Shown here: positions 18,108 to 32,061 of the stretch, piece after piece
Numbering within the stretch: position 1 is the stretch's first letter
Layout: the number at the start of each line of letters is the position of its first letter
Assembly: GCF_003259155.1 (NCBI RefSeq)
Contig: NZ_QGMQ01000003.1
Coordinates: 62,001-126,000 of the forward strand
DNA from: Marinimicrobium alkaliphilum
Lineage (GTDB): Bacteria > Pseudomonadota > Gammaproteobacteria > Pseudomonadales > Cellvibrionaceae
Direction: 5' to 3'
DNA: 64,000 bases
Made by a program: the position numbers and the translations under genes
The notes under the pieces: model-generated
What the model was told of the DNA's origin: nothing
Databases searched by the model: none
The model's input: only the letters and a program-made list of their open reading frames with translations

Positions 18108-18959
18108 ATGAGTAACCAGGACGTGCGTCTGAGTTTCGAGTTCTTTCCTCCCAAGACCCCGGCGGGCCAGGAGAAACTCGACACCGTTAAAGACCAACTG
18201 AATCAATTTGCACCGGACTTTTTCTCGGTCACCTACGGTGCCGGCGGCTCCACCCGCGACAACACCAAAGATATCGTCACCCGCTTCAAGCAGGCCGGCC
18301 TGAGCGTAGCGCCGCACCTGTCTTTCGGAGGCGATAATGCGGATACCGTCAAGGCACTGATCGCCGAGTACCAGGCGGCGGGCATCGACCGTATTGTGGC
18401 TCTGCGCGGCGATATGCCCTCGGGCGTTGGCGGCGCCTACCAACTGGTCTACGCCAACGAGCTGGTGGCGTTTATCCGCGAGCATTTTGGTGACCATTTC
18501 CAGCTCGAGGTGGCGGCCTACCCGGAAATTCACCCGCAAGCAAAAAGCTACGATGACGATATCCGCTACCTGAAAGGCAAGTTCGATGCGGGCGCCAACA
18601 GCGGCATCACCCAGTACTTCTACAACCCGGACGCCTACTTCCATTTTATGGAGCAGTGCGCCAAGGCCGGCATCAGTCAGCCCATTTACCCCGGGATCAT
18701 GCCGATCATCAACTTCCGCAACCTGATGCGTTTTTCCGACACCTGCGGCGCCGAGATCCCGCGCTGGCTGCGCAAGCGCCTGGAGAGCTTTTACGACGAT
18801 AACGACAGTTTGCGGGCTTTTGGCGTAGACTTGGTAACAGAGTTGTGTGAAACCCTGCTCGAAAACGGCGCGCCCGGGCTTCACTTCTACACCATGAACC
18901 AGTACGAGCCCTGCGCCACCGTCGTCAAAAACCTCGGTTTAACACCGCAGGCGGATTGA
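18108..18959 (+). CDS. metF: Methylenetetrahydrofolate reductase
   Basis: Reduces 5,10-methylene-THF to 5-methyl-THF, the methyl donor for methionine synthesis (FAD enzyme, cytosol). The ATG at 18108 with GAGAGA upstream gives 283 residues. An open extension upstream overlaps ahcY and lacks family sequence. Motifs are LSFEFFPPKTPAG (catalytic Glu), FFSVTYGAGGSTR, HLSFGGDNAD, IVALRGDMP (FAD) and the C-terminal GLHFYTMNQ. It is third in the metK-ahcY-metF block, probably co-transcribed with ahcY. Confidence 0.97.
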   Translation: MSNQDVRLSFEFFPPKTPAGQEKLDTVKDQLNQFAPDFFSVTYGAGGSTRDNTKDIVTRFKQAGLSVAPHLSFGGDNADTVKALIAEYQAAGIDRIVALRGDMPSGVGGAYQLVYANELVAFIREHFGDHFQLEVAAYPEIHPQAKSYDDDIRYLKGKFDAGANSGITQYFYNPDAYFHFMEQCAKAGISQPIYPGIMPIINFRNLMRFSDTCGAEIPRWLRKRLESFYDDNDSLRAFGVDLVTELCETLLENGAPGLHFYTMNQYEPCATVVKNLGLTPQAD

Positions 18960-18969
18960 CACGGCCCTG

Positions 18970-18993
18970 TGCCCGCCCAATAATTGGCGGGCA
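18970..18993 (+). other. Stem-loop after metF
   Basis: TGCCCGCC (18970-18977) and GGCGGGCA (18986-18993) form an 8-bp stem ten bases after the metF stop. The following TTAC is too short for a canonical T-run, so it is either a weak terminator or a 3'-end stabiliser. Confidence 0.45.
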
Positions 18994-19067
18994 TTACGTC
19001 AACTGCGGGAAGCGGGACGTAGACACATAACAATAGAGCCAAGCCACTTGGCCAGTGAGGTTCCAGC

Positions 19068-20126
19068 ATGAAAGAGGGTAGACCCACCTCGTTCGATATT
19101 GCCTATCGAGCGGGCGTATCGCAATCGACGGTATCCCGGGCGCTGCGCAACAGTCCCCTGGTGAGTGAGGAGACGCGCCGCAAAGTCCAGGAAATCGCGC
19201 AAGAACTCAACTATAAGGTCGACAAAAACGCGCGCAACCTGCGTTCGCGTAGCACCTGCACTATCGCACTACTACTGTGCGAGGACCACGGCACCGCCAA
19301 TTCGGTGATCAACCCCTTCTTTTTGTCGATGCTCGGGAGCATCACCCGCGCCTGCGCCAATCGCGGCTACGACCTGCTGGTATCGTTTCAACAGGCCAGC
19401 GAAGACTGGCATGCGGACTACGAGGACGCCAACCGCGCCGACGGCATTATTTTTCTCGGCTACGGTGACTACGTCACTTACGTGGAGAAGCTTAACCAGC
19501 TGACTGAAGTCGGTGCCCACTACATCACCTGGGGTCCGGTTCTGCCGGGGCAGCCCGGGTTTTCCATTGGTTGCGACAACTTCAACAGTGCCTGTAAAGC
19601 CACCAAGCACCTGATCGATCTGGGGTATCGCAATATCGCCTTTATCGGCGATATCTCCGAGCACAGCCCGGAGTTCAACTCCCGCTACAAAGGCTACTGC
19701 AAGGCATTGAAGGCGGCGGGCATTGAGGTCAACCCACAGCTCCAGGTGGCGGCGGAAACCTTCGAGGACTCAGGTTACCAGGCCATCAAAACCCTGGAAA
19801 AACGCGGCATCAAGTTTGATGCAGTGTTTGGCGCGAGCGATCTGATCGCAATCGGCTGCGTGATGGCCCTGGAAGAATCGGGCCTTACCATTCCCGACGA
19901 TATCGCCCTGATGGGCTTCGACGATATCCCCATGTCCGGTTACACCCATCCGCCGCTGTCTACGGTTCGCCAGGACACCAATAAAGCCGGTGAAATGCTG
20001 GTGGAGAACCTGCTCAAGCTGGTTGCCGGTGATGTGGTCGAGTCGCAACTGCTACCGGCCGAACTGATCGTCCGTGGCTCTTGCGGCGCCCAAAAAGGCC
20101 GCCGCAAGCAACCCCCCGCCGCTTAA
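19068..20126 (+). CDS. LacI-family transcriptional regulator of the starch/maltodextrin locus
   Basis: 352 residues. Residues 6-30 form the LacI helix-turn-helix and hinge entry (SFDIAYRAGVSQSTVSRALRN), residues ~45-60 the hinge helix region, and residues ~62-340 the periplasmic-binding-like effector domain (CTIALLLCEDHG, RADGIIFLGYG, LIDLGYRNIAFIGD, GFDDIPMSGYTHPPLSTVRQD). The protein sits at the edge of the maltodextrin genes, and five LacI-style CG-centred palindromes lie in their control regions. I therefore infer that it binds TGCATACGTATGCA. The operator placement hints at activation. No such site is seen before its own start. A GAGG site supports the ATG. Its TAA stop overlaps the TAA of the convergent amylase gene. 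Confidence 0.9.
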   Translation: MKEGRPTSFDIAYRAGVSQSTVSRALRNSPLVSEETRRKVQEIAQELNYKVDKNARNLRSRSTCTIALLLCEDHGTANSVINPFFLSMLGSITRACANRGYDLLVSFQQASEDWHADYEDANRADGIIFLGYGDYVTYVEKLNQLTEVGAHYITWGPVLPGQPGFSIGCDNFNSACKATKHLIDLGYRNIAFIGDISEHSPEFNSRYKGYCKALKAAGIEVNPQLQVAAETFEDSGYQAIKTLEKRGIKFDAVFGASDLIAIGCVMALEESGLTIPDDIALMGFDDIPMSGYTHPPLSTVRQDTNKAGEMLVENLLKLVAGDVVESQLLPAELIVRGSCGAQKGRRKQPPAA

Positions 20127-21835
20127 CGGGGGCTGGCGGGAATCCGCAGCTCTTCCAGGCGTGCAGCCAGCGCCGGATTGTTGACCGGCTCGTTAAAGGC
20201 CAGCACACGGACGCCATGGGCGGGCACCTCCAGCGTAATAGCGGGATGGGCGCCCGTGTCGTCAACTGTAATCACAGCGTCACCACCCAGCTCTTCCCAA
20301 CGACCGGTATTGATCATACCTTCGGCTGTCACTGCCGTAGCCCGGTCACCTTTGTTCAGTAGCACCAGTGCCGTCTGGGCAACACCGTCGACCTGATAGA
20401 CCCGCAGGAAGGCGGCGGTATCGCCGGCAAAGTCCAGGTTCACCTGCAAGCCCTTCTGGAGCGCAACAGATTGCTGACGGATGTGGGCGATATGGCGCAG
20501 GGCTTCGGCGATCGGATGGCCTTCAGCACGGGCAATATTCTCCTCGCCGTAATAGTTGCGATTGCCGTAGTGCTCCGCCAGGCCTGACTGGAAACCGATT
20601 TCTGACCCGTAGTAAACCACCGGAATCCCGCGCGCGGTAAAGAGCCAGTTATTGGCGCTCATGTAACCACCGGTGTCCGCATCCAGACGACTCATATCGT
20701 GGTTGTCGTAGAACGTCGCCAGCTCATAAGGGTTCTGGTAAGGACTGTTTTCCAGATACAGATAGCCGAGAATCTCGGCGAAATCACTGCCCGGATTCTC
20801 AAACACCTGAGTCATGTGCTGCCGACCCGGAAAATCAATCACACTCACGCCGCCGTTCTCCGGATAAGTGTGTTCGGCAATCTCGGCCGCTTCATAGCTC
20901 CAGCTTTCCCCGAACATAAAGAAATCCGGATGCTCGGCGCGAATACGCCCCACAAACTCCTTCCAGAAGTGGTGCGGTTGGTGCTTGATGGTGTCGATAC
21001 GGAACGCCGCGGCACCCTGCTCAATCCACTGCAAGTAGGCGTTGACGAAATAGTCCATCACCTCCGGGTTGTCCGGGTCGAGGCTGGCCAGCTCGGCAAT
21101 ATCCGGCTCGTGCAGAAACCAGCGCTGCAGGGGATTGCTGGCGGGATCAAGATCATTCGGATGAACGTTACCGTGGTCGGCCAAAAGCTCACCCTCAGGT
21201 CCGTAAATCTGACCGAAGTTGCCGTGCGGCTCGTCCATACCCCAGGCGGGAGAACCGTGGTTGGCCACGATATCGAGGACGAGCTTCAAGCCGTACTCTT
21301 CTTCCAGCGCCTGGGTGAGGTCCGCAAAGCTCAGGTCGTCCGACTCCAGGTGCTCATCCACCTTGAAAAAGTTGACGCCCCAATAACCATGGTAACCGGT
21401 TTTGCCGCCGTCGCCGCTACCGCCAAAAGTGACTTCATCGCCACCGCTGAAGGCTGCATCCGGGTTGTCGATAATGGGCGTGACCCAGACTGAGGTGAAA
21501 CCCAGGTCGCGAATATAGTCAGCGTTGTTGAGCAAGCCCCGAAAGTCGCCCCCCATATAGCCAATAAAGGCTTCCTCGCCGTCAGGCCCTTGCAGACGCC
21601 CCTCCCAGCTCGGATGATCGCCACCCTGATCTTCAAAGTTGTTGCTCGAATCGCCATCGACAAAACGGTCGGTCATCACAAAATAGATGGCCTCGCGGGC
21701 CCAAGGCTCGCGCGTACCGTAGTACTCGGCGCCGGGATCTACGCTTACCTTCGGATCGGCACTGCGCTCGCTGGCACAGCCGATCATCAGGGCGGCTGCC
21801 AACGGCAGCAGGGCAAAACCTTTCAAAGCATTCAT
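20123..21835 (-). CDS. GH13 alpha-amylase / CGTase-like lipoprotein
   Basis: The 570-residue product has lipobox MIGC (lipid Cys20). The GH13 catalytic barrel spans ~45-450. Conserved region I is LDIVANH, region II AFRIDTIKH with nucleophile D281, region III MFGESW with acid/base E310, and region IV FYDNHD with D380. GYHGYWGVNFFKVD is the pattern seen in cyclodextrin glucanotransferase and maltogenic amylase groups. A C-terminal beta-domain follows (to ~555). It should cut alpha-1,4 bonds of starch or maltodextrin at the outer membrane. It starts 11 nt after the permease stop, so it shares the permease's regulated promoter. All catalytic residues are present. The exact product profile cannot be told. 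Confidence 0.9.
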   Translation of the reverse strand: MNALKGFALLPLAAALMIGCASERSADPKVSVDPGAEYYGTREPWAREAIYFVMTDRFVDGDSSNNFEDQGGDHPSWEGRLQGPDGEEAFIGYMGGDFRGLLNNADYIRDLGFTSVWVTPIIDNPDAAFSGGDEVTFGGSGDGGKTGYHGYWGVNFFKVDEHLESDDLSFADLTQALEEEYGLKLVLDIVANHGSPAWGMDEPHGNFGQIYGPEGELLADHGNVHPNDLDPASNPLQRWFLHEPDIAELASLDPDNPEVMDYFVNAYLQWIEQGAAAFRIDTIKHQPHHFWKEFVGRIRAEHPDFFMFGESWSYEAAEIAEHTYPENGGVSVIDFPGRQHMTQVFENPGSDFAEILGYLYLENSPYQNPYELATFYDNHDMSRLDADTGGYMSANNWLFTARGIPVVYYGSEIGFQSGLAEHYGNRNYYGEENIARAEGHPIAEALRHIAHIRQQSVALQKGLQVNLDFAGDTAAFLRVYQVDGVAQTALVLLNKGDRATAVTAEGMINTGRWEELGGDAVITVDDTGAHPAITLEVPAHGVRVLAFNEPVNNPALAARLEELRIPASPR

Positions 21836-21846
21836 AGTTACCTACC

Positions 21847-23367
21847 TTACAGGGACGCTTCCGCGCCCTCATCTTCTACCAAAAGAGTGGCCGCAGCCGC
21901 GATAAAGAAACACACACCGGCCAGCGCCAAGGCATAGATTGCCTGACCACCGAAAAGATCGCGCACCAGCATTCCCAAAATACTCACCGCCAAGATCTGC
22001 GGAATCACAATAAAGAAGTTGAAGATCCCCATGTAAATGCCCATTTTGTGCGCGGGCAGGGAACAGGACAGAATCGCATAGGGCATGGACAGGATTGACG
22101 CCCAGGCAATACCGATACCCACCATCGACACCAACAACCAACTGGGGTCGCGGATCAGCAGCAGCGAGATCATACCCAGGCCACCCATGATCAAATTGAC
22201 CATATGGGTACTCTTGCGCGAGATCAGTTTAGCAATCACGGGAATCAGGAATGCGGCCATGGCGGCAAAGACATTGTAAGAGGCAAAGAGTACGCCCACC
22301 CAGTCAGCGCCCTGATTGTAGGCAACCGACGCGGTATCGCTGGTGCCGTAGTGATAACCGGTAATGGCCGGCGTGGCGTAAATCCACAAGCAAAAAAGCG
22401 CAAACCAGGAGAAAAACTGCACGACCGCCAGCTGCTTCATGGTCTTGGGCATGTGGAAAAAATCGTGGGTAAAGTGATAAAAGCCGTTGTTGATCTTGCC
22501 ATTGCCGAGCATGTAACCGCTGATCAATTGCAGAATACCGAACACGCACACGCCCCCGGCAATAATGTGCAGGCGCCAATCCAGTCCGAAACCGGAAATC
22601 AGTGCAACCAAAGCCACGCCTGAGGCCAGCCAGAGCTTGCCGCCGCGCGCGTACTGCCCGTGGGTACGCGTTTCCGCCAGGATTTCATCGGTGCGTTTTT
22701 CTTTCAGGCTATCGTCGTACTCGGCGAACGCCTTCAGTTGCTCCGGGCTGTACTCCTTGGTCGTCACCACCGTCCAGAGCACCGCGAAGAAAAATACCGC
22801 CGCACCCACATAAAAGGCATACATCACCGAAGGCGGAATCACGCCCGGGGCTGCGGTATTGGCCACATCCAGCCAGTTGGTCAACATCCAGGGTAGCGCC
22901 GAAGCCACTACCGACCCTATCCCGATAAAGAAGCTCTGCATGGCGAAGCCCGCAGTACGCTGCTTTTCCGGCAGCATATCACCGACAAACGCGCGGAAAG
23001 GCTCCATGGAGACGTTGATCGAAGCGTCGAGAATCCAGAGCATACCCGCCGCGACCCACAGGTAAGGCGAATGGGGCATGAACACCAGGGCCAGACTCGC
23101 CGCGATCGCACCATACAGAAAGTAAGGACGCCGCCGGCCCAGACCGGTCCAGGTTTTGTCACTGAAATAGCCAATGATGGGCTGCACGATCAAACCCGTC
23201 ATGGGCGCTGCGAGCCACAGGATGGGGAGTGTATCTACACCGGCACCGAGAGTTTGAAAAATCCGGCTGACGTTCGAGTTCTGCAGGGCAAAGCCAAACT
23301 GAATGCCCAGGAAGCCGAAACTCATGTTCCAAATCTGCCAGAAGCTGAGCTGAGGTTTTTTTGTCAT
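21847..23367 (-). CDS. MFS maltose/maltodextrin:cation symporter (SLC45-like)
   Basis: The 506-residue inner-membrane protein has about 12 hydrophobic segments. The N-terminal pattern QIWNMSFGFLGIQFGFALQ, then QPIIGYFSDKTWTGLGRRRPYFL is diagnostic for the SLC45/GPH-like sugar symporters. These replace ABC maltose transporters in Xanthomonas, Caulobacter and Shewanella. A long cytoplasmic loop (about 205-245) separates the two halves. It should import the oligosaccharides left by periplasmic GH13 enzymes. It is the first gene of a two-gene minus-strand operon with the amylase lipoprotein. It is driven from the promoter at 23414-23442, with a regulator site directly upstream. Confidence 0.9.
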   Translation of the reverse strand: MTKKPQLSFWQIWNMSFGFLGIQFGFALQNSNVSRIFQTLGAGVDTLPILWLAAPMTGLIVQPIIGYFSDKTWTGLGRRRPYFLYGAIAASLALVFMPHSPYLWVAAGMLWILDASINVSMEPFRAFVGDMLPEKQRTAGFAMQSFFIGIGSVVASALPWMLTNWLDVANTAAPGVIPPSVMYAFYVGAAVFFFAVLWTVVTTKEYSPEQLKAFAEYDDSLKEKRTDEILAETRTHGQYARGGKLWLASGVALVALISGFGLDWRLHIIAGGVCVFGILQLISGYMLGNGKINNGFYHFTHDFFHMPKTMKQLAVVQFFSWFALFCLWIYATPAITGYHYGTSDTASVAYNQGADWVGVLFASYNVFAAMAAFLIPVIAKLISRKSTHMVNLIMGGLGMISLLLIRDPSWLLVSMVGIGIAWASILSMPYAILSCSLPAHKMGIYMGIFNFFIVIPQILAVSILGMLVRDLFGGQAIYALALAGVCFFIAAAATLLVEDEGAEASL

Positions 23368-23413
23368 GGTCAGGTACTGCCTATTCTGCTGAAGTCATGG
23401 TTATTTACGGACA

Positions 23414-23442
23414 ACAGTAATCTTCCAGCCCCCGCCACACAA
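23414..23442 (-). promoter_or_regulatory. Promoter of the permease-amylase operon
   Basis: On the minus strand, TTGTGT (23442-23437) and TACTGT (23419-23414) are separated by 17 bases. The -35 box begins 5 nt after the degenerate operator 23448-23461, the same gap as at the two plus-strand promoters of this locus. The -10 box is a moderate match. Confidence 0.6.
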
Positions 23443-23447
23443 GACTT

Positions 23448-23461
23448 TGCATACGTATTCA
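23448..23461. promoter_or_regulatory. LacI-type operator O1 (one mismatch)
   Basis: TGCATACGTATTCA is the 14-bp palindrome TGCATACGTATGCA with one changed base. It belongs to the permease-amylase promoter, on its upstream side. Confidence 0.75.
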
Positions 23462-23488
23462 GGCTTTTAGGCCCCGACCGGACCACCC

Positions 23489-23502
23489 TGCATACGTATG
23501 CA
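23489..23502. promoter_or_regulatory. LacI-type operator O2
   Basis: A perfect TGCATACGTATGCA palindrome in the middle of the divergent control region, 29 bp centre-to-centre from O3 and 41 bp from O1. It could serve either promoter or allow side-by-side binding. Confidence 0.85.
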
Positions 23503-23517
23503 TTGAGCAAACCGGTA

Positions 23518-23531
23518 TGCATACGTATGCA
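23518..23531. promoter_or_regulatory. LacI-type operator O3
   Basis: A perfect TGCATACGTATGCA palindrome ending 5 nt before the -35 box of the alpha-glucosidase promoter (TTGCGG at 23537-23542). Confidence 0.85.
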
Positions 23532-23536
23532 GTCTA

Positions 23537-23566
23537 TTGCGGTGATATCAGCGCCAGGCGTATGTT
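23537..23566 (+). promoter_or_regulatory. Promoter of the alpha-glucosidase / TonB receptor genes
   Basis: TTGCGG (23537-23542), an 18-nt spacer and TATGTT (23561-23566). This is a mediocre sigma70 match directly downstream of operator O3. A weak core promoter of this kind often needs an activator. Confidence 0.55.
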
Positions 23567-23653
23567 AGATCAACAGTCAATTTTCACAGGCTGTCGACTC
23601 GACACAGATCGGACAGTCTGAATAACGAACAATCACAATAGGTTTTCAGTACT

Positions 23654-25285
23654 ATGCAAAATTATCCCTGGTGGCGCGGCGCCGTCATCTATCAGGTCTA
23701 CCCCCGCAGCCTGATGGACAGCAATGGCGATGGCATCGGCGATCTGCCGGGCATCATCGACAAGCTGGACTACATCGCCAGTCTGGGTGTGGACGCCATC
23801 TGGATCTCACCTTTTTTCAAATCGCCAATGAAAGACTTTGGTTATGACATCAGCGATTACCGCGATATTGACCCCATTTTTGGCACGCTGAACGACTTTG
23901 ACCGTTTGATCAGCGAGGCTCACGCCCGCGATATCAAGATCATCATTGATCAAGTGCTCAGTCACACCTCAGACCAGCATCCCTGGTTTGAAGAAAGCCG
24001 CCAGTGCCGCGAGAATGACAAAGCCGACTGGTATGTCTGGGTCGATCCGGCTGAAGACGGCTCACCGCCCAACAACTGGCTGTCCATTTTTGGCGGTGTC
24101 GCCTGGGAGTGGGAGCCGCGCCGGTGCCAGTACTACCTGCATAACTTCCTTAAGACTCAGCCGGATCTGAATTTCCACAACCCGGCTGTACAGAAAGAAA
24201 TTTTGTCTGAAGTCGAATTCTGGTTGAAGAAAGGCGTGGATGGCTTTCGCCTGGATGCCATCAACTTCTGCTTCCACGACAAAGAGTTGCGGAACAACCC
24301 GTCAAAACCGGAAGCCGAGCGCAAAGGTCGCGGCTTCACCACCGACAACCCCTACGCCTATCAGCGCCACCTGTATGACAACACCCGGCCGGAAAACCTC
24401 GATTTTCTCAAGCACCTGCGCCAGCTGATTGATCAGTATCCCGGCGTCGTGACCCTGGGCGAAATCTCTTCTGAAGACTCGCTCAAAACCATGGCCGAGT
24501 ACACGGCGGGCAACGAACGCCTGCACATGGCCTACAGTTTCGAGTTGCTGGCCGAGTCGGTGTCGCCCCAGTACGTACGCGACACCGTGGCCACTCTGGA
24601 AGCGGGACTCGGTGAAGGCTGGCCCTGCTGGGCCATCGGCAACCACGACGTCATTCGGGTAATGAGCCGCTGGGGCGACACACCCTACAACCCCGAACAG
24701 GCCAAGATGCTCAACGCCATGCAGCTGTCACTGCGCGGCAGCGTGTGCAGCTACCAAGGCGAAGAACTGGGTCTGACCGAGGCGGAAATTCGCCAGGATC
24801 AACTCCAGGACCCTTACGGCATCACCTTCTGGCCCCGATTCAAAGGTCGCGATGGTTGCCGCACGCCCATGCCCTGGCAGAAAGAAGCCACACAGGCCGG
24901 TTTCAGTGACGCGGTACACACCTGGTTGCCAATTCCGGACGAACACCGGGCCCTGGCAGTTGACCAGCAAGCCGACAAAGCCGATTCCATTCTCAATCAC
25001 TACCGGGGCTTTATTCACTGGCGCAAGCAACAGCCGGCACTGGTACTGGGTGATATCGAGTTTGTGCACGCGGATGACGACATCCTCGTGTTCACACGCA
25101 CCAACGCGCAACAGCAACTGCTGGTTGCCTTCAACTTCAGTAAAGAATCCAGGGCATATGACACGAGCGCCCAGCAGATTTCGCATTTGCTGGACGGTCA
25201 TGGCCTGGTACCGGGGGAGTGGAAGAGTGAGACCCTGACGCTCCCCGGATACGGTGCAGCATTTGCCCTGCTCCACTCACGTTAA
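23654..25285 (+). CDS. Cytoplasmic alpha-glucosidase, GH13 (oligo-1,6-glucosidase-like subfamily)
   Basis: 543 residues without a signal peptide. The opening WWRGAVIYQVYPRSLMDSNGDGIGDL is the signature of the GH13 alpha-glucosidase / oligo-1,6-glucosidase branch. Region I is IDQVLSHTSDQHPWF (about 98-112). Region II is GFRLDAINF with nucleophile D201, region III is TLGEISSED with acid/base E270, and region IV is IGNHDVIRV with HD at 331-332. A C-terminal beta-domain completes the protein. The family suggests release of glucose from maltose and short maltodextrins in the cytosol. It is the first gene after the control region with operators O1-O3, and the TonB receptor follows 37 nt later. Confidence 0.94.
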   Translation: MQNYPWWRGAVIYQVYPRSLMDSNGDGIGDLPGIIDKLDYIASLGVDAIWISPFFKSPMKDFGYDISDYRDIDPIFGTLNDFDRLISEAHARDIKIIIDQVLSHTSDQHPWFEESRQCRENDKADWYVWVDPAEDGSPPNNWLSIFGGVAWEWEPRRCQYYLHNFLKTQPDLNFHNPAVQKEILSEVEFWLKKGVDGFRLDAINFCFHDKELRNNPSKPEAERKGRGFTTDNPYAYQRHLYDNTRPENLDFLKHLRQLIDQYPGVVTLGEISSEDSLKTMAEYTAGNERLHMAYSFELLAESVSPQYVRDTVATLEAGLGEGWPCWAIGNHDVIRVMSRWGDTPYNPEQAKMLNAMQLSLRGSVCSYQGEELGLTEAEIRQDQLQDPYGITFWPRFKGRDGCRTPMPWQKEATQAGFSDAVHTWLPIPDEHRALAVDQQADKADSILNHYRGFIHWRKQQPALVLGDIEFVHADDDILVFTRTNAQQQLLVAFNFSKESRAYDTSAQQISHLLDGHGLVPGEWKSETLTLPGYGAAFALLHSR

Positions 25286-25322
25286 CCCACTATAGTCATA
25301 ATAACCGACGAGGAAACTCATC

Positions 25323-28178
25323 ATGATCAACAGCAAAAAAATGTTACTGCCATCAGCCATTGGCTGTATCCTGGCCGGCGCTTACAGCGTACCGGCTGTG
25401 GCCCAAGATGACGGAATGATCCTGGAAGAAGTGGTCGTTACCGGTATTCGTCGCAGTTTGATGAACTCCATCAGCATCAAGCAGGACTCCAGCTCCATCG
25501 TCGAAGCTCTGTCGGCGGAAGACATCGGTAAGCTGCCCGACACCAGTATCGCCGAGTCCCTGGCGCGCCTGCCCGGCCTGGCCGGTGAGCGCGTCAACGG
25601 TCGCACCAGCGGTGTTTCCGTGCGCGGCTTTAACGAAGACTATGTCGCTACCACCATGAACGGCCGCGAGCTGCTCGGTATCGGTGACAACCGCGGTGTT
25701 GAGTATGATCTCTACCCCTCAGAGATCATCTCCAACGCGGTCGTCTATAAGTCGCCCGACGCCAGCCTGGTCAACCAGGGTCTGGGCGGTATCGTTGACC
25801 TGCGCACCATTCGCCCGCTGGAAAACGAGCGCATTATCGCCATCAACGCCAACCTCGAGCAGAATGGCATGAGCTCCGCCAACCCGGACTTCAGCGATCG
25901 CGGTCACCGTTTGGCATTCACCTTCTCTGATACTTTTAACGACGGCACCATGGGCTTCGCCCTGACCCTCGCCACCATGGACTCTCCGAGCCAGGAAGAG
26001 CAGGTACGGATGTGGGGCTTCCCCGATAACAACGAAGCCGGTAACTGGGAAGAGCTCGGTGGTCCGGAGTTCGAAGACTTCCCGGATGCCGAATACATTA
26101 TGGGCGGTCACGATACCTACGTGCGCTCTGGCTCCATGCAACGCGACACCGTGTCCTCCATTTTCCAGTGGGCACCGAATGATCGCCTGACCATGACCGC
26201 CGACTTGCTGTACATCGACTTTTCGGAAGAAAAAGTCTTCCGGGGTCTGGAAGAAGGTGGGCCGATCTGGAGCGGTGCGGAGTTTGAAGTCTTCAATGTT
26301 GAAGACGGCCTGGTCACTGAAGGTCAATTCGATGGCTTTCACTCCGTTATTCGGAACGATGCAGAATCTAAAGAAGGCGACCTGACCGCGTTTGGCTTCA
26401 ACCTTGAGTATTTGCTGAACGACGACTGGAAACTGGGATTTGACGCCGCTCGCAGCGAATCCTCAAAAAGCTTTATCAACATGGAAAGCTATTCCGGTAC
26501 CGGCCGCGCCCGGACCGACACTCAAGGCGGTGCCGCAGCGCGCTCGTGGACCCATACTGGTGACGCCGGCATCACCTTTGGCCCACACAACAGCATCACC
26601 ATGCCAGACTACACGGACCCCAACGTCATCCGCCTGGCCGGCCCACAGAACTGGGGCGGTGGTATTGCTGACCTGGTGGGCACCGATAATGCTCAGGACG
26701 GCTTCGTCAACCAGCCGATATTCGATGAAGAGCTGACCACTGTGCGTCTGAACGTTGATGGTCATGTCGACTGGTCTATCTTCAATCGTGCCGAATTCGG
26801 TATTAACTTCTCCGACCGCTCCAAGTCTAAAGCCAACACCGGCGCTTATCTGGTGGGCCCGGGCTTTACCGACAACGAGCCGGCTGAAACCCAAACCGAT
26901 GCGCCGGTACCGGAAGAGTTCCGCGTAGGGAACACCGATCTGAGTTTTGTGGGTCTTCCCCCTATGCTGGCTTACGATAGTGTCGGCCTGTACCAGAGCG
27001 GTTTCTACCGTGAAATTGATGCGACGCTGTACGAACCCGGCCGCCTGGGCGACACCTGGACCGTGGACGAGCAAGTTACTACGCTTTACAGCATGCTCGA
27101 CTTCGAACAGGGCATCATCAGCGGTAACATCGGTCTGCAAGCGGTTCACACTGACCAATGGGCCACCGGCTTTGATACCCAGACCGAGCGCGTCGATGGT
27201 GTTGCTACGGTAGTGACGACCCCAACCGAAGGCGGCGATGACTTCTGGAACTTCCTGCCCAGTCTGAACATGACCTTTGACGTGGCCGAAAACCAATATG
27301 TGCGTTTTGCGGCGTCTCAGACCATGTCTCGCGCTCGACTCGACGACATGCGCCCGAACAACACCATCGGCTTTGACTTCGACGACGGTATTCGCCAGTC
27401 CACTGACCCCGAGCGCAGCGCCTGGAACGGCAGTTCCGGTAGCCCCCAGCTGCGGCCTCTGCGCGCTTATCAGGCCGATCTCGGGTACGAGTGGTACTTT
27501 GCTGACGACGGCATGCTCGGTGCCGGCATCTTCTACAAAGACCTGCGTAACTGGCACTTCAACCGTCAAGTCCTGACTGACTTCAGTGAGTTCATCATCG
27601 AAGGCTATCACGACAACGGCATCGACGAACTGCGTTCCACCCAGGGCTTCACCAACTTTATGGCGGAAGCCGGTTCGGGTAGCGTGAAGGGTCTGGAGCT
27701 GCAGGCGAGCGTGCCCTTCTACATGTTCAGCGACATTCTGGATGGTTTCGGCCTGATCGCCAGCGCCACCTTCCTTGACGGTGAGCTGACCGATATAGAT
27801 GAAGAGGGTAACCCCGTCACCGCCGATATCCCGGGCTTGTCCGAGCGCATCTACCAGGCCACACTCTACTACGAGCGCAACGGTTTCGAGGCCCGTATCA
27901 GCGGCCGCTACCGTGACAAGTACGCGACCGAGTTCTACGGCCTGAGCATGGCCCTGACTCCGACCACCGACCTGGGTGCGGAGATCTGGGATGCACAGAT
28001 CGGCTATGACTTCGGCGCAGGTGGTTGGGACAACCTGGATGGCTTGAGCATCAGCCTGCAGGCACAGAACATCACCGATGAAACCACCATCTCAGCTGCA
28101 GAAGATGACCCGCGTCGGGTCAACACCTACCAGCGCTTTGGTGCCAACTACCTGCTGGGTGTGAACTACCGCTTCTAA
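25323..28178 (+). CDS. TonB-dependent receptor, probable maltodextrin importer
   Basis: The 951-residue outer-membrane receptor has a signal peptide of ~27 residues ending PAVAQ. The TonB-box region is MILEEVVVTGIRRSL. The plug domain (about 45-180) has IGKLPDTSIAESLARLPG and GVSVRGFNEDYVATTMNGREL. The long barrel ends in the aromatic GVNYRF used for barrel assembly. The plug wording is that of the sugar-type receptors of Caulobacter, Xanthomonas and Cellvibrio. No SusD partner is present, as usual outside Bacteroidetes. The maltodextrin substrate is inferred from its neighbours. A GAGGAAA ribosome site precedes the ATG. A strong terminator follows the stop. Confidence 0.93.
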   Translation: MINSKKMLLPSAIGCILAGAYSVPAVAQDDGMILEEVVVTGIRRSLMNSISIKQDSSSIVEALSAEDIGKLPDTSIAESLARLPGLAGERVNGRTSGVSVRGFNEDYVATTMNGRELLGIGDNRGVEYDLYPSEIISNAVVYKSPDASLVNQGLGGIVDLRTIRPLENERIIAINANLEQNGMSSANPDFSDRGHRLAFTFSDTFNDGTMGFALTLATMDSPSQEEQVRMWGFPDNNEAGNWEELGGPEFEDFPDAEYIMGGHDTYVRSGSMQRDTVSSIFQWAPNDRLTMTADLLYIDFSEEKVFRGLEEGGPIWSGAEFEVFNVEDGLVTEGQFDGFHSVIRNDAESKEGDLTAFGFNLEYLLNDDWKLGFDAARSESSKSFINMESYSGTGRARTDTQGGAAARSWTHTGDAGITFGPHNSITMPDYTDPNVIRLAGPQNWGGGIADLVGTDNAQDGFVNQPIFDEELTTVRLNVDGHVDWSIFNRAEFGINFSDRSKSKANTGAYLVGPGFTDNEPAETQTDAPVPEEFRVGNTDLSFVGLPPMLAYDSVGLYQSGFYREIDATLYEPGRLGDTWTVDEQVTTLYSMLDFEQGIISGNIGLQAVHTDQWATGFDTQTERVDGVATVVTTPTEGGDDFWNFLPSLNMTFDVAENQYVRFAASQTMSRARLDDMRPNNTIGFDFDDGIRQSTDPERSAWNGSSGSPQLRPLRAYQADLGYEWYFADDGMLGAGIFYKDLRNWHFNRQVLTDFSEFIIEGYHDNGIDELRSTQGFTNFMAEAGSGSVKGLELQASVPFYMFSDILDGFGLIASATFLDGELTDIDEEGNPVTADIPGLSERIYQATLYYERNGFEARISGRYRDKYATEFYGLSMALTPTTDLGAEIWDAQIGYDFGAGGWDNLDGLSISLQAQNITDETTISAAEDDPRRVNTYQRFGANYLLGVNYRF

Positions 28179-28193
28179 ACCCACGCAGCAAGG

Positions 28194-28232
28194 AAGCCCC
28201 TGCTATAGTCAGCCTGTAGCAGGGGCTTTTTT
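28194..28232 (+). terminator. Intrinsic terminator after the TonB receptor
   Basis: AAGCCCCTGCTA (28194-28205) pairs with TAGCAGGGGCTT (28217-28228), and a run of six T follows (28227-28232). It separates the receptor from the halogenase gene 28 nt later. Expression of that gene therefore needs readthrough or a promoter close by; no obvious promoter is seen. Confidence 0.9.
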
Positions 28233-28260
28233 ATGGTCGGTGCTCGGCAGGAGTTCATTC

Positions 28261-29769
28261 ATGAATACACAAAAACCCATAACAAAGGTTGCGATTGTTG
28301 GCGGCGGCTCATCGGGATGGATGGCGGCGGCAATGGTCAGTCGGTTCCTGGGCCCACAGCTTGATATCACCCTGATAGAATCGAGCGCCATCGGTACCGT
28401 GGGTGTTGGCGAAGCGACTATCCCGCCCATTCGCACCTTCAACAATGTCCTGGGTATCGACGAGAACGAGTTTCTGCGTCGCACCGGCGGCACCATCAAG
28501 CTCGGTATCGAGTTTGAGAACTGGGGCCGGCAAGGTGACCGCTATATGCACGCCTTTGGTGACATTGGCCGCAACCTCGGCTTTACCGGGTTTCACCACT
28601 ACTGGCTGCGCGGCCAGCAATCAGGTGAAGCTCACAACTACTGGGACTTCTCCCTCAATTATCGCGCTGCCAAAAACCACCGTTTTCAACCTTTGGAGAC
28701 TATCCCGAATACGCCCCTGTGTGGATTGGTGCACGCCTACCACTTCGATGCCGGGCTCTACGCGCAGCTGCTGCGCGAGTACAGCGAGGCGCGAGGCGTC
28801 AAGCGTATCGACGGCACCATCCAGCAGGTACATCAGCACCCGGATACCGGTGAAGTCACCGAATTAACGCTGGCAGATGGTCAACAGCTGGACGCCGAGC
28901 TGTTTATCGACTGCTCGGGCTTTCGCGGTTTACTGATCAAGGAAACCCTCAAGGTCGAATTTGACGATTGGTCACATTGGCTGCCGTGCAACCGGGCTTT
29001 GGCTGTACCCAGCGAAACCGCCGCCCAAACCACCCCCTACACCCGGGCCATCGCCCATGAGGGCGGCTGGCAGTGGCGCATTCCCCTGCAGCACCGCAAT
29101 GGCAACGGCCTGGTCTATTGCAGCGATTTCCTGTCGGATGATCAGGCCAGTACACGGCTGCTCGATAACCTGGATACACCCGCCCTGGGTGAGCCGCGAC
29201 CGATCAGCTTTACGACCGGCCGACGTCGGCAACAGTGGCACAAAAACGTAATCGCCCTGGGGCTGTCTAGCGGTTTTCTGGAGCCCCTCGAATCCACCAG
29301 TCTGCACCTGGTGCAATCGGGCATTGTGCGCCTGATCAAACATTTCCCCCATCGCGGATTACAAAGCGCAGTGATCGATGAGTACAACCGTCAGTCACAG
29401 GACGAGTTTGAAAAGATTCGCGATTTCATCATCCTTCATTATCACCTGAATCAGAAGCATGACAGTCCCTTCTGGCGCGCCTGCCGCGAATCCGACAAGC
29501 CCGACTCCCTGTTGCGTCGGATCGAACTGTTCAGAACCAGCGGGCTGGTCTTTCGGGAACAGGACGAGCTGTTCAGCGAAACTGCCTGGCAGCAGGTGTT
29601 TATCGGTCAGGGACTGATCCCGGAAGATTACCATCCACTGGCGAACGAGCTGCCGGGCGCACAATTGACAGAATTTTTCCGCAACCTGAACACCACATTT
29701 GAACGCACTGTCGATCAGCTTTCTGATCACGATGCCTACCTACAACAACACGCAAAAGCCACATTATGA
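28261..29769 (+). CDS. Flavin-dependent tryptophan-halogenase family protein
   Basis: The start at 28261 has AGGAG upstream and gives 502 residues; an ATG 7 codons earlier is less likely. The N-terminal FAD motif is VAIVGGGSSGWMAAAMV. GVGEATIPPI follows. The halogenase signature GGWQWRIP (WxWxIP) is intact. A Lys in GGTIKLGIEF (about K80) sits where PrnA has its catalytic Lys79, and LEPLEST holds the conserved Glu. The family chlorinates or brominates tryptophan or other aromatics with reduced flavin. Relatives are often found next to TonB receptors in sugar loci, where their role is unknown. The last codons overlap the next gene in ATGA, so the two are translationally coupled. No flavin reductase is nearby. 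Confidence 0.88.
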   Translation: MNTQKPITKVAIVGGGSSGWMAAAMVSRFLGPQLDITLIESSAIGTVGVGEATIPPIRTFNNVLGIDENEFLRRTGGTIKLGIEFENWGRQGDRYMHAFGDIGRNLGFTGFHHYWLRGQQSGEAHNYWDFSLNYRAAKNHRFQPLETIPNTPLCGLVHAYHFDAGLYAQLLREYSEARGVKRIDGTIQQVHQHPDTGEVTELTLADGQQLDAELFIDCSGFRGLLIKETLKVEFDDWSHWLPCNRALAVPSETAAQTTPYTRAIAHEGGWQWRIPLQHRNGNGLVYCSDFLSDDQASTRLLDNLDTPALGEPRPISFTTGRRRQQWHKNVIALGLSSGFLEPLESTSLHLVQSGIVRLIKHFPHRGLQSAVIDEYNRQSQDEFEKIRDFIILHYHLNQKHDSPFWRACRESDKPDSLLRRIELFRTSGLVFREQDELFSETAWQQVFIGQGLIPEDYHPLANELPGAQLTEFFRNLNTTFERTVDQLSDHDAYLQQHAKATL

Positions 29770-31616
29770 AACTGATATATTCCTCTCTGATACTGTTAAC
29801 CCTGGTTCTGACACTGCCTGCCAAGGCAGCCTCAATTGATCGTATCGACCCACCCTTCTGGTGGGCCGGCATGGCAGAGCCCTCATTGCAACTGATGGTT
29901 TACGGCGACGCCATCGGCGACCTCCAGGTCGACGCCAAGCACGACGCTGTGAAGGTTGAGCGCGTCATACCGGTAGAAAATGACAACTACCTGTTTGTCG
30001 ATCTCCTCATTAACCCTGCATTCGAAGGCGGCAGCGTCACCCTGACCTTTTCCAATGCCGATGGCGCGCAAATGGAACAGCGCTATGAGATTCTGCCCCG
30101 ACGCGAAGGTTCAGCCCAACGCCAGGGGCTGTCGACTCAGGATGCCATCTACCTGATTGTGCCGGATCGCTTTGCCAATGCCGATCCCGAGAACGACACG
30201 TTGCCCGGCATGAAAGAGGCAGCCAATCCAGACAGCCATGTAGGACGCCACGGTGGCGACATCGCGGGTATCATTCAGCATATGGATTATATTGCCGACA
30301 TGGGCTTCACCGCCGTTTGGGCCACGCCCTTCCTGGAGAACGATCAGCCGGCCTACTCCTATCACGGTTACTCCACCACCGACCACTACCGCATCGATCC
30401 CCGCTTCGGCAGCAATCGCGACTATCAGCGCCTGTCAGAAGTCGGCGCCGGGCACGGTGTAAAACTGGTGAAAGACCTTATCGTCAACCACATCGGCGAC
30501 CAGCACTGGTGGATGGATGATCTACCCACTGACGACTGGCTCAATTTTCAGGACGGCTTTGTCCCCACCACCCACTACCGCACCACCATTCAGGATATTC
30601 ACGCGGCGGATATCGACCGCAAACACTTTGTCGACGGCTGGTTTGTGGAGACCATGCCCGACCTCAATCAGCGCAACCCCCTGATGGCGAACTACCTGAT
30701 CCAGAACAGTATCTGGTGGATCGAGTACGCCAACCTCAAGGGCATTCGGGCCGACACCTGGTCCTATTCCGACCGCGACTTTCTCGCGGACTGGACCCGC
30801 CGATTGCTGGACGAGTACCCCAACTTTACCATCGTGGGTGAAGAGTGGACTCCCAACCCCAACACCATCGCCTACTGGCAGAAAGGACAGAGTAACCCGG
30901 ACGGTTACGAGGCCTACACCCCCAGCATGATGGACTTCCCGGTGTACTACGCTTTGCGCGACGCCATGACCGAAGAAGAGAACTGGGGCGAAGGGCTGAT
31001 CAACCTGTACCTGGCATTGGCGGACGACTATATCTATCCGGATCCCTGGTCGCTGGTCATTTTTGCCGAGAACCACGATACCAGCCGCATCTACAGCTAC
31101 CTGGATGAAGATCTTGCACGCTTTAAACTCACCATGACCTTTCTCGCTACCATGCGCGGCACACCGCAGTTCTTTTACGGCTCGGAAGTACTCGCCACCA
31201 GCCCCAAGACCCGGGCCGACGGCGAAGTTCGCAGTCAGTTTCCCGGCGGTTGGCCCGAGCACGAGCGTAACGCCTTCACCGGCAGGGGCTTGAGTGATGA
31301 TCAGGCAAGTGCCCAGAACCACCTGCGCCGCCTACTTAATTGGCGTAAAAGCGCCGCGGTCATTCATGACGGTCGGCTTCTGCATTACGCACCGGAAACG
31401 GGCGTGTACGTGTATTTTCGCTATACCGATGATGAACGGGTGATGGTGGTACTGAACAAGAATGATACAGATAGAACTCTCGATCTTTCCCGTTTCCGTC
31501 AGGGATTGGCCGAGCACGCCAAGGGCGAAGATATTCTATCCGGTGAAGCCTACACGCTAACGGATACGATAACCGTAGGCGCAGGCCGGAGCCTTGTGTT
31601 GGAGCTGAAACGCTGA
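29766..31616 (+). CDS. Periplasmic GH13 cyclomaltodextrinase / neopullulanase-like enzyme
   Basis: The 616-residue product has a cleavable signal peptide (~1-21, ending AKA). An N-terminal beta-sandwich of the cyclomaltodextrinase-N type (~24-112) includes IDRIDPPFWWAGM. The GH13 barrel follows: region I KDLIVNH, region II GIRADTWSY with nucleophile D330, region III IVGEEW with acid/base E359, and region IV FAENHDTSR with HD at 437-438. A C-terminal beta-domain ends the protein. It should shorten or debranch maltodextrins or cyclodextrins after uptake by the receptor. Its ATG overlaps the halogenase stop. A terminator lies 60 nt after its stop. All catalytic residues are present. Confidence 0.93.
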   Translation: MKLIYSSLILLTLVLTLPAKAASIDRIDPPFWWAGMAEPSLQLMVYGDAIGDLQVDAKHDAVKVERVIPVENDNYLFVDLLINPAFEGGSVTLTFSNADGAQMEQRYEILPRREGSAQRQGLSTQDAIYLIVPDRFANADPENDTLPGMKEAANPDSHVGRHGGDIAGIIQHMDYIADMGFTAVWATPFLENDQPAYSYHGYSTTDHYRIDPRFGSNRDYQRLSEVGAGHGVKLVKDLIVNHIGDQHWWMDDLPTDDWLNFQDGFVPTTHYRTTIQDIHAADIDRKHFVDGWFVETMPDLNQRNPLMANYLIQNSIWWIEYANLKGIRADTWSYSDRDFLADWTRRLLDEYPNFTIVGEEWTPNPNTIAYWQKGQSNPDGYEAYTPSMMDFPVYYALRDAMTEEENWGEGLINLYLALADDYIYPDPWSLVIFAENHDTSRIYSYLDEDLARFKLTMTFLATMRGTPQFFYGSEVLATSPKTRADGEVRSQFPGGWPEHERNAFTGRGLSDDQASAQNHLRRLLNWRKSAAVIHDGRLLHYAPETGVYVYFRYTDDERVMVVLNKNDTDRTLDLSRFRQGLAEHAKGEDILSGEAYTLTDTITVGAGRSLVLELKR

Positions 31617-31675
31617 GATTTTAAGCGTTAAAACAACTAAAAAAGTGTTTTCATAGTCATTTTCAGTTGCCCCCG

Positions 31676-31703
31676 AAGCCCGCATTTTCTGCGGGCTTTT
31701 TTT
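31676..31703 (+). terminator. Intrinsic terminator after the halogenase-GH13 pair
   Basis: AAGCCCGCA (31676-31684) pairs with TGCGGGCTT (31690-31698) around TTTTC, followed by a T-run to 31703. It isolates the upstream genes from the next control region, which begins ten bases later. Confidence 0.92.
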
Positions 31704-31712
31704 GTGGCTCGT

Positions 31713-31726
31713 TGCATACGTATGCA
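31713..31726. promoter_or_regulatory. LacI-type operator O4
   Basis: A perfect TGCATACGTATGCA palindrome, 19 bp centre-to-centre upstream of O5 (about two helical turns), allowing two dimers on the same DNA face. Confidence 0.85.
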
Positions 31727-31731
31727 TTCAA

Positions 31732-31745
31732 TGCATACGTATGCA
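31732..31745. promoter_or_regulatory. LacI-type operator O5
   Basis: A perfect TGCATACGTATGCA palindrome ending 5 nt before the -35 box TTGTGA of the pullulanase-leader promoter. Confidence 0.85.
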
Positions 31746-31750
31746 AGCTA

Positions 31751-31779
31751 TTGTGACCCCCGCAGCATAAGCCTAGTAT
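31751..31779 (+). promoter_or_regulatory. Promoter of the pullulanase-amylase transcript
   Basis: TTGTGA (31751-31756), a 17-nt spacer and TAGTAT (31774-31779). The transcript should start near 31786, which leaves a leader of roughly 275 nt before the pullulanase ATG. The distance to O5 equals that at the other two promoters of the locus. Confidence 0.65.
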
Positions 31780-31833
31780 GAACTCAACGTTAGATAACAC
31801 TGAATAACAACGACAACGCACAAAGGTACTCCC

Positions 31834-31881
31834 ATGGTCCTTTATTGCAAACGCAGTAGCGACAGAATTCCGGACAACTAA
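31834..31881 (+). CDS. Possible 15-residue leader peptide
   Basis: ATG with an AAAGG stretch ten bases upstream opens a 15-codon frame (MVLYCKRSSDRIPDN) inside the pullulanase leader, about 90 nt before the intrinsic terminator at 31971-31997. It is too short for composition to be informative. It is noted because a short ORF followed by a terminator is the layout of transcription attenuators. It may well be chance. Confidence 0.2.
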   Translation: MVLYCKRSSDRIPDN

Positions 31882-31948
31882 GTCTACAGGCGACGTGTGT
31901 AGCCCCGCGCCGAAACCAGTGTCTCTCTCCAACCCTCCAAGTGTTGGG

Positions 31949-31997
31949 ACTCCTCTGCCAGGAGTTTTTCGGGCGCAGTTTACTGCGCCCTTTTTTT
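31949..31997 (+). terminator. Tandem hairpins with strong intrinsic terminator in the pullulanase leader
   Basis: Hairpin a: ACTCCT (31949-31954) with AGGAGT (31960-31965) and five T. Hairpin b: GGGCGCAGT (31971-31979) with ACTGCGCCC (31982-31990) and seven T (31991-31997). They lie between the regulated promoter and the pullulanase ATG at 32062. No convincing promoter is seen in the 64 bases that remain. The element therefore either attenuates the pullulanase operon or ends a ~210-nt small RNA. Confidence 0.85.
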
Positions 31998-32061
31998 ATC
32001 CCCACAACGCGTAGAACTCATAAAACCCTAACAAACAAACCACCCGAAAGGAGCGATAATA

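Follow-up and report, generated by a model that had tools for sequence, protein, structure and literature searches.

Fixed operator-to-promoter spacing suggests an activating role for a LacI-family maltodextrin regulator of Gammaproteobacteria

A LacI-family regulator and its predicted operators in Marinimicrobium alkaliphilum

We analyzed a 64,000-nt stretch of the M. alkaliphilum genome (contig NZ_QGMQ01000003.1, positions 62,001 to 126,000), referred to below as the window. Numbering starts at its first letter. The features on which the analysis centers are the following.

19068-20126, plus strand: LacI-family regulator of 352 aa, with a LacI helix-turn-helix (HTH) and a periplasmic-binding-protein-like sensor domain
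21847-23367, minus strand: MFS sugar permease gene, predicted target (PF07690/PF13347)
23414-23442, minus strand: predicted permease promoter; −35 TTGTGT (23442-23437), 17 nt, −10 TACTGT (23419-23414)
23448-23461, minus strand: permease operator, one mismatch, reading TGAATACGTATGCA towards the permease
23489-23502, no strand assigned: middle operator, perfect, 29 bp start to start above the glucosidase-proximal copy
23518-23531, plus strand: glucosidase-proximal operator, perfect, from the operator scan
23537-23566, plus strand: predicted alpha-glucosidase promoter; −35 TTGCGG (23537-23542), 18 nt, −10 TATGTT (23561-23566)
23654-25285, plus strand: GH13 alpha-glucosidase-like gene, predicted target (PF00128, 1.7e-130)
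25323-28178, plus strand: TonB-dependent receptor gene, downstream of the glucosidase-like gene and in the same direction (TIGR01782, PF00593/PF07715)
31713-31726, no strand assigned: distal pullulanase operator, perfect, 19 bp above the proximal copy
31732-31745, plus strand: pullulanase-proximal operator, perfect, from the operator scan
31751-31779, plus strand: predicted pullulanase promoter; −35 TTGTGA (31751-31756), 17 nt, −10 TAGTAT (31774-31779)
32062-35286, plus strand: pullulanase gene, predicted target (TIGR02103, PF11852)

The cluster also holds a GH13 amylase gene, a cyclomaltodextrinase-like gene and a halogenase-like gene. The last of these resembles tryptophan halogenases (28240-29769; PF04820, 5e-192) and lies between the receptor and cyclomaltodextrinase-like genes.

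Pfam searches of the regulator recovered the HTH at residues 10-50 (PF00356, 4.5e-16) and the sensor domain (PF13377, 2.8e-34; PF00532, 4.2e-19), with the last match ending at residue 339, while no NCBIfam model scored above its cut-off. RbsR, CcpA, PurR and LacI are its relatives with solved structures. HTH, sensor domain and a predicted palindromic operator with central CG (TGCATACGTATGCA) together place the protein in the LacI/GalR family. Orthologues are 51-88% identical to the regulator (58-61% in Shewanella), while other LacI-type matches in the searched genomes reach only 34-46%. This similarity, well above that of the paralogues, suggests that the protein belongs to the gammaproteobacterial MalR orthologue group, whose operator precedes genes for a maltodextrin permease, a glucosidase and TonB receptors in Shewanella and, judging gene names by eye, in the class-level sample described below.

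A scan of the window for the 14-bp operator TGCATACGTATGCA returned the four perfect copies listed above, and the fifth, at the permease, reads TGCATACGTATTCA with one mismatch. By itself, the operator count is weak evidence at up to three mismatches (five against 2.23 expected; 6 of 100 shuffles reach five), yet none of the five copies deviates at more than one position. As the earlier note had claimed, the proximal operator ends 5 nt before the predicted −35 box at the permease, alpha-glucosidase and pullulanase promoters, and the centers of operator and −35 are 15 bp apart in all three, on both strands. Measured from the operator end to the start of the predicted −10, the distances are 28, 29 and 28 nt, respectively. 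A second, more distant operator, missed by the earlier note, accompanies both the glucosidase promoter (29 bp start to start) and the pullulanase promoter (19 bp). In the window, operator copies neither cover nor lie downstream of any predicted core promoter. Both boxes, −35 and −10, are predictions here, from which we infer the start sites. A consensus promoter scan requiring at least 9 of 12 matches called no promoter in 31600-32100, which fits the weakness of the predicted boxes, and an Rfam search of 18500-33000 gave no match.

Elsewhere in the genome, only two more places match the operator with at most one mismatch (C23:26122, L011; C23:297191, L012). Both carry one mismatch and precede alpha-amylase genes (PF00128). 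The exact spacing is absent there, the nearest −10-like hexamer lying at 26 nt rather than 28 or 29 nt when inspected by eye.

Terminator-like hairpins were seen in some leaders. One (GGGCGCAGTTTACTGCGCCC followed by T7) resembles an intrinsic terminator and lies at 31971-31990, in the pullulanase leader downstream of the predicted promoter. A near-identical hairpin follows the same operator-promoter arrangement in four related genomes (G054, G060, G061 and G062; loci L028, L035, L036 and L037), where the next gene is a pullulanase relative with 40-85% identity over the aligned parts. This pullulanase-leader hairpin may be an attenuator or the end of a short leader RNA. In Litorilituus lipolyticus and Colwellia sp. 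RSH04, a terminator-like hairpin likewise separates the operator-promoter from the start of the permease gene (L099, position 8193, and L125, position 8069, both counted on the reverse strand).

Operator spacing in related genomes

A search of 144 genomes from the family of the organism, its own among them, found operator-N5-TTG in 18 and the reversed control pattern in none. Each of these 18 belongs to the 57 genomes, out of 143, whose listed regulator match reaches 52% identity or more. For closer analysis, we assembled a named set, the best-80 set, comprising the best 80 loci listed with regulator relatives, the window and the two additional loci of the own genome. Genera among the 80 best loci include Cellvibrio, Gilvimarinus, Marinimicrobium, Shewanella, Colwellia, Thalassotalea, Pseudoalteromonas, Catenovulum, Rhodanobacter, Dyella and Lysobacter. 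Operators were picked by operator sequence alone with at most two mismatches, and promoter elements were located afterwards. Directions were excluded when no open reading frame (ORF) of 150 aa lay within 450 nt, when the ORF was less than 30 nt away, when flanks were short or when another operator lay downstream. This reduced 280 directed sites to 125, of which 95 remained after a 65% identity filter on the first 50 nt.

In the best-80 set, TTG stood exactly 5 nt past the operator in 33 of 95 directions, with 0-6 occurrences (mean about 2) at other offsets. A TANNNT −10 was found at 28 or 29 nt in 51 of 95 (30 and 21, respectively), again against 0-6 at other offsets (mean 1.7). Binomial comparison with the other offsets gave 3e-31 for TTG and 7e-48 for TANNNT, values that ignore shared ancestry. 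The other 44 of the 95 directions in this set had no TANNNT at 28/29 nt; many of them may represent the non-promoter side of a site. Among 78 control directions without a detected gene, a set not filtered for redundancy, the counts were lower yet above chance (TTG at 5 nt in 4, −10 at 28/29 nt in 9), perhaps from real genes that had been missed.

The earlier note had proposed the distance in related genomes as a check, and it turned out favorably: wherever a promoter was recognizable, the spacing was the same within about 1 nt in distant lineages. The −10 distance (28/29 nt) is more broadly conserved than the −35 TTG, which makes the note's exact 5 nt the local form of a broader operator-to-−10 rule.

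Shewanella provided a close comparison. We examined eight loci from genome-wide matches in Shewanella sp. ANA-3 and S. insulae, leaving out weaker ones (for example, L154 and L158-L161). In ANA-3, operator-5-TTG-18-TANNNT precedes three genes, that of the permease, that of a TonB receptor and one other, and S. insulae has the same pattern. The alpha-glucosidase promoters of both are 1 nt longer (TTG at 6 nt, −10 at 30 nt), so that spacing equals that of the window at six of the eight promoters. The sites came from a genome-wide scan, and a three-mismatch search of 21 kb around the ANA-3 regulator gene found no operator.

Spacing in an independent sample of the class

A second sample comprised 369 genomes drawn over the class, searched with the oriented form TGAATACGTATGYA as seed. 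This seed was present in 20 genomes, own included, and, being oriented, defines a set that by itself cannot test symmetric operators. Without the own genome, there were 40 directions with a proximal site and an ORF in 16 genomes (38 after filtering); G169, G294 and G366 had no ORF and stand outside the 40. TANNNT was found at 28 nt in 19 of the 38 and at 29 nt in 6, against a mean of 0.69 at other offsets, and TTG at 5 nt in 7. With the own genome set aside, nine of the remaining 19 have a detected orthologue of the regulator (51-58% identity), and the −10 occupied its expected place at 25 of 32 sites in these nine versus 2 of 8 in genomes lacking it. The two exceptions are G379, where the site lies on a 3.9-kb contig with a receptor-like gene and the regulator is perhaps unassembled, and G385, where the −10 is perhaps due to chance.

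Seven loci from a single genus (L191, L200, L204, L205, L207, L208 and L209 in G288, G401 and G497) carry tandem operator pairs 31-32 bp apart. The hexamer 5 nt past the proximal copy begins with TTC in four and with TTT in two of them. G288 has 11 operator matches in total, and its regulon may be large.

Weak −35 elements and a polar operator

At the −35 position of the 51 best-80 promoters with a −10 at 28/29 nt, T, T and G were present in 47, 33 and 40 cases, while A at position 4 occurred in only 5. The mean match to TTGACA was 3.18, compared with 2.46 ± 0.13 for shuffled sequences, and none of the 51 had an extended −10. Four GC-rich genomes of the second sample (G157, G310, G379 and G419), probably xanthomonad-like, showed TTG at 5 nt in none of nine promoters, with the −10 at 28/29 nt in eight and at 27 nt in one. 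Hexamers at their −35 position include CTTCCC, TGGGCG, GATGCG, GTTCCG and ATTCCC. This falls short of a full loss of the −35, as the hexamers still match TTGACA slightly above shuffles (2.67 versus 2.09 ± 0.27 for the nine promoters). For the seven promoters in genomes with an orthologue and a −10 at 28/29 nt, a count that omits the G379 promoter and the one with its −10 at 27 nt, the values were 2.71 versus 2.09 ± 0.30 (P = 0.03), an excess about equal to that of the 51. The −35 is thus weak throughout, and in some lineages it lacks its TTG core, but it is not absent.

The operator, a near-palindrome, is polar, with the C-to-A half pointing away from the promoter. In the non-redundant best-80 set, 32 of 42 directions facing the intact half had a −10 at 28/29 nt, compared with 5 of 23 facing the other half (p = 5e-5). 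The unfiltered best-80 set (49/60 versus 7/27) and the second sample (25/32 versus 1/17) gave the same picture.

Activation or repression

To assess the sign of regulation, we counted promoter-like −35/−10 pairs by their position relative to the operator in the 95 best-80 directions. With the −10 at offsets 27-30, there were 18 pairs versus 1.2 ± 1.3 in shuffled sequences, which puts the operator ahead of the −35 and clear of the core promoter, as in LacI-family activators. Pairs with the operator over the −35 or spacer numbered 1 versus 3.3 shuffled (offsets 1-15) and 0 versus 2.6 (16-26), and those with the operator past the −10 numbered 3 versus 6.1 (offsets −35 to −15). A −10 starting inside the operator (offsets −14 to 0) occurred three times versus 1.1 ± 1.0, a slight excess that cannot be called real. 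Across the 95 directions, no clear sign was therefore seen of the classical repressor layout, in which the operator covers the core promoter or closely follows it. The 40 nt upstream of the 51 best-80 promoters contained no conserved motif (at most 0.13 bits per column), which does not indicate a second activator with a fixed site.

PurR of Escherichia coli, a LacI-family repressor whose palindromic operator likewise has a central CG, served as a control. Under a looser promoter rule, this small and weak K-12 control placed the −10 4-7 nt past the box at three of eight sites, so that the box covers the −35; four sites had no promoter call, and at glyA the distance was 30 nt. In six Shewanella/Colwellia-type genomes, the PurR box gave two-mismatch matches only, at 6 places versus 10 for the reversed control.

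Published fitness data point in the same direction as the geometry. In S. loihica, the malR fitness pattern matches that of malT (cofitness 0.94, rank 1), and ANA-3 and S. amazonensis behave alike (PMC5443562); the authors regard MalR as a likely activator, at least with maltose. According to the same paper, RegPrecise lists MalR as a repressor, and another study, cited there, places MalR binding over 300 bp before the start site of malT. This figure may refer to the translation start, since the operator lies 361 nt (ANA-3) and 301 nt (S. insulae) from the predicted start codon; taken as a true transcription start, it would conflict with the promoter proposed here. For Xanthomonas citri, the authors of PMC10714752 suggest that the starch cluster is repressed by its LacI-family regulator, arguing from the family to which that protein belongs. 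The best 80 matches to the window regulator include xanthomonad proteins; the X. citri protein is at most a candidate orthologue.

The earlier note had offered two options, activation or repression by an unusual upstream mode, each through a fixed contact with RNA polymerase. Its activation half is supported by the spacing, the weak −35 (as expected of promoters needing help), the polarity, the lack of clear repressor-type sites and of a second motif, and the published Shewanella fitness data; its other half appears improbable, as discussed below. Points that weigh against this reading are the two own-genome operators at alpha-amylase genes, the longer glucosidase spacing in Shewanella, the 44 directions lacking a −10 at 28/29 nt and the residual TTGACA match of the −35 in GC-rich relatives. 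We conclude that the regulator is probably in the main a transcription activator, a description that includes dual regulators that mostly activate.

Proposed mode of action

Transcription typically starts 6-8 nt after the −10. Placing the start accordingly, a regulator dimer bound to the 14-bp operator would be centered at about −48. Class II activators sit at about −41.5 and class I activators at about −61.5, so the predicted position would fall between the two. The promoter-facing half-site (CGTATGYA) would adjoin the −35 region, 5 nt away, and the dimer would touch RNA polymerase in a fixed position and orientation, making up for a −35 that lacks its ACA half. Plausible partners are sigma region 4 and/or an alphaCTD that occupies the gap. 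Binding or occupancy may often be raised by another operator located 17-39 bp upstream of the first: 21 of the 51 best-80 promoters have one within 40 nt upstream, in 17 of the 21 at 19-20, 28-29 or 39 bp start to start, and these steps of about 10 bp suggest a shared helical face. Maltose or a maltodextrin would be the signal that activates the bound regulator, judging from the gene set and from the maltose induction of the XCC2469 receptor gene of X. campestris (PMC1790865), at most a candidate orthologue of the window receptor gene.

In a bolder reading, the whole LacI-family orthologue group, despite a fold regarded as a repressor fold, would have become dedicated activators that take over much of the −35 contact. 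The polar operator would be locked at about −48, its distance to the −10 selected more strictly than the −35, and such promoters would form a class of their own beside those activated from class I (about −61) and class II (about −41) positions. We consider this bolder reading somewhat less likely than not.

Alternative explanations

The strongest alternative, which overlaps with the activator reading, is a dual regulator whose dimers, helped by tandem copies, would repress without sugar and activate with sugar from the same site. The frequent second operators noted above would suit it. The window, however, has no operator over or after a predicted core promoter, the best-80 relatives show no clear excess of such sites, and the sensor domain reaches nearly to the C-terminus of the protein, which makes a looping LacI-type tetramer unlikely; tetramer looping was set aside on this ground. 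Overall, we consider a dual mode rather unlikely, though a serious contender.

Repression from about −48 would instead require that the bound regulator freezes RNA polymerase or blocks the alphaCTD until maltodextrin releases it. The LacI family is mostly repressive, and GalR at the upstream gal operator offers a precedent for upstream repression. An inhibitory contact could likewise require fixed spacing, the glyA site in the PurR control has its −10-like hexamer 30 nt downstream, and repression is what RegPrecise and the Xanthomonas authors assume. Such a mechanism nevertheless predicts a good basal promoter, whereas the −35 is weak, most clearly at position 4, and it leaves the positive malR/malT cofitness in Shewanella unexplained. 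These points make upstream repression improbable in comparison with activation.

In a third scheme, the regulator would displace or block another activator, CRP-like or other, at the operator, as CytR does with CRP. TTGTGA at some −35 positions resembles half a CRP site, and PMC3463425 describes an upstream LacI-family site, the lev cre, at which CcpA represses by blocking LevR. The upstream regions lacking a conserved motif speak against anti-activation, and positions 12-28 downstream of the operator are nearly flat in the best-80 set (at most 0.10 bits), leaving no second CRP half-site; CRP overlap was set aside for these two reasons, and the scheme as a whole is very improbable. Finally, an accident of shared ancestry among a few promoters, conceivable insofar as the sites come from related gene clusters and the binomial values ignore kinship, is largely contradicted and hardly credible, as the spacing is kept in 95 best-80 and 38 second-sample directions filtered to below 65% identity over the first 50 nt, before different genes and with differing spacers, in the own family and at least four other orthologue-holding families (f15, f142, f146 and f163).

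Relation to known regulators

The proposed activation has precedents, as LacI-family activators are already known. The closest system is MalR of Shewanella (PMC2996990, PMC5443562), an orthologous regulator (58% identity in ANA-3) with the same operator, accompanied by permeases 60-62% identical to the window protein over the part compared (61% over 357 aa in ANA-3) and glucosidases at 71-74%. The available excerpts of these papers report the regulon and, from fitness, the activator sign, with no mention of a fixed −10 distance, a weak −35 or polarity. A limited literature check likewise found no statement that gammaproteobacterial MalR acts at a single fixed −10 distance with a polar operator.

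CcpA of Bacillus, also of the LacI family and with a 14-bp operator, activates ackA, pta and ilvB from upstream of the −35 in a helix-face-dependent manner (PMC3463425). Unlike the window regulator, it is described there as global, partnered by HPr-Ser-P and mostly repressing, and the three activating cre boxes tabulated there (−103, +30 and +88) share no common distance, unlike the operators in the window. MdxR of Enterococcus faecium is a LacI-family activator of maltodextrin genes, with mdxB at 0.14-fold in the deletion mutant (PMC3737153). It differs in being from a Firmicute with an ABC transporter operon; the main text of that paper lacks the terms 'binding site' and 'promoter'. Cra/FruR of Enterobacteria, finally, is a LacI-family protein that activates some promoters and represses others, global and two-signed (PMC4052901).

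Implications

LacI-family regulators are often labeled repressors by default, as RegPrecise did for MalR according to PMC5443562. The geometry described here argues for an activator sign across the orthologue group in several gammaproteobacterial families, in agreement with the fitness data. If this is true, models of starch and maltodextrin uptake would have the wrong sign in marine Gammaproteobacteria and perhaps in xanthomonads, and operator-to-−10 spacing would offer a cheap genomic test for the sign of LacI-family regulators. The group would also provide a simple system for studying how a fold typical of repressors acquired the ability to attract RNA polymerase. Across many marine and soil bacteria, the regulator appears to be positioned at one set distance before the promoters of starch-digestion genes, where it most likely serves as an on-switch.
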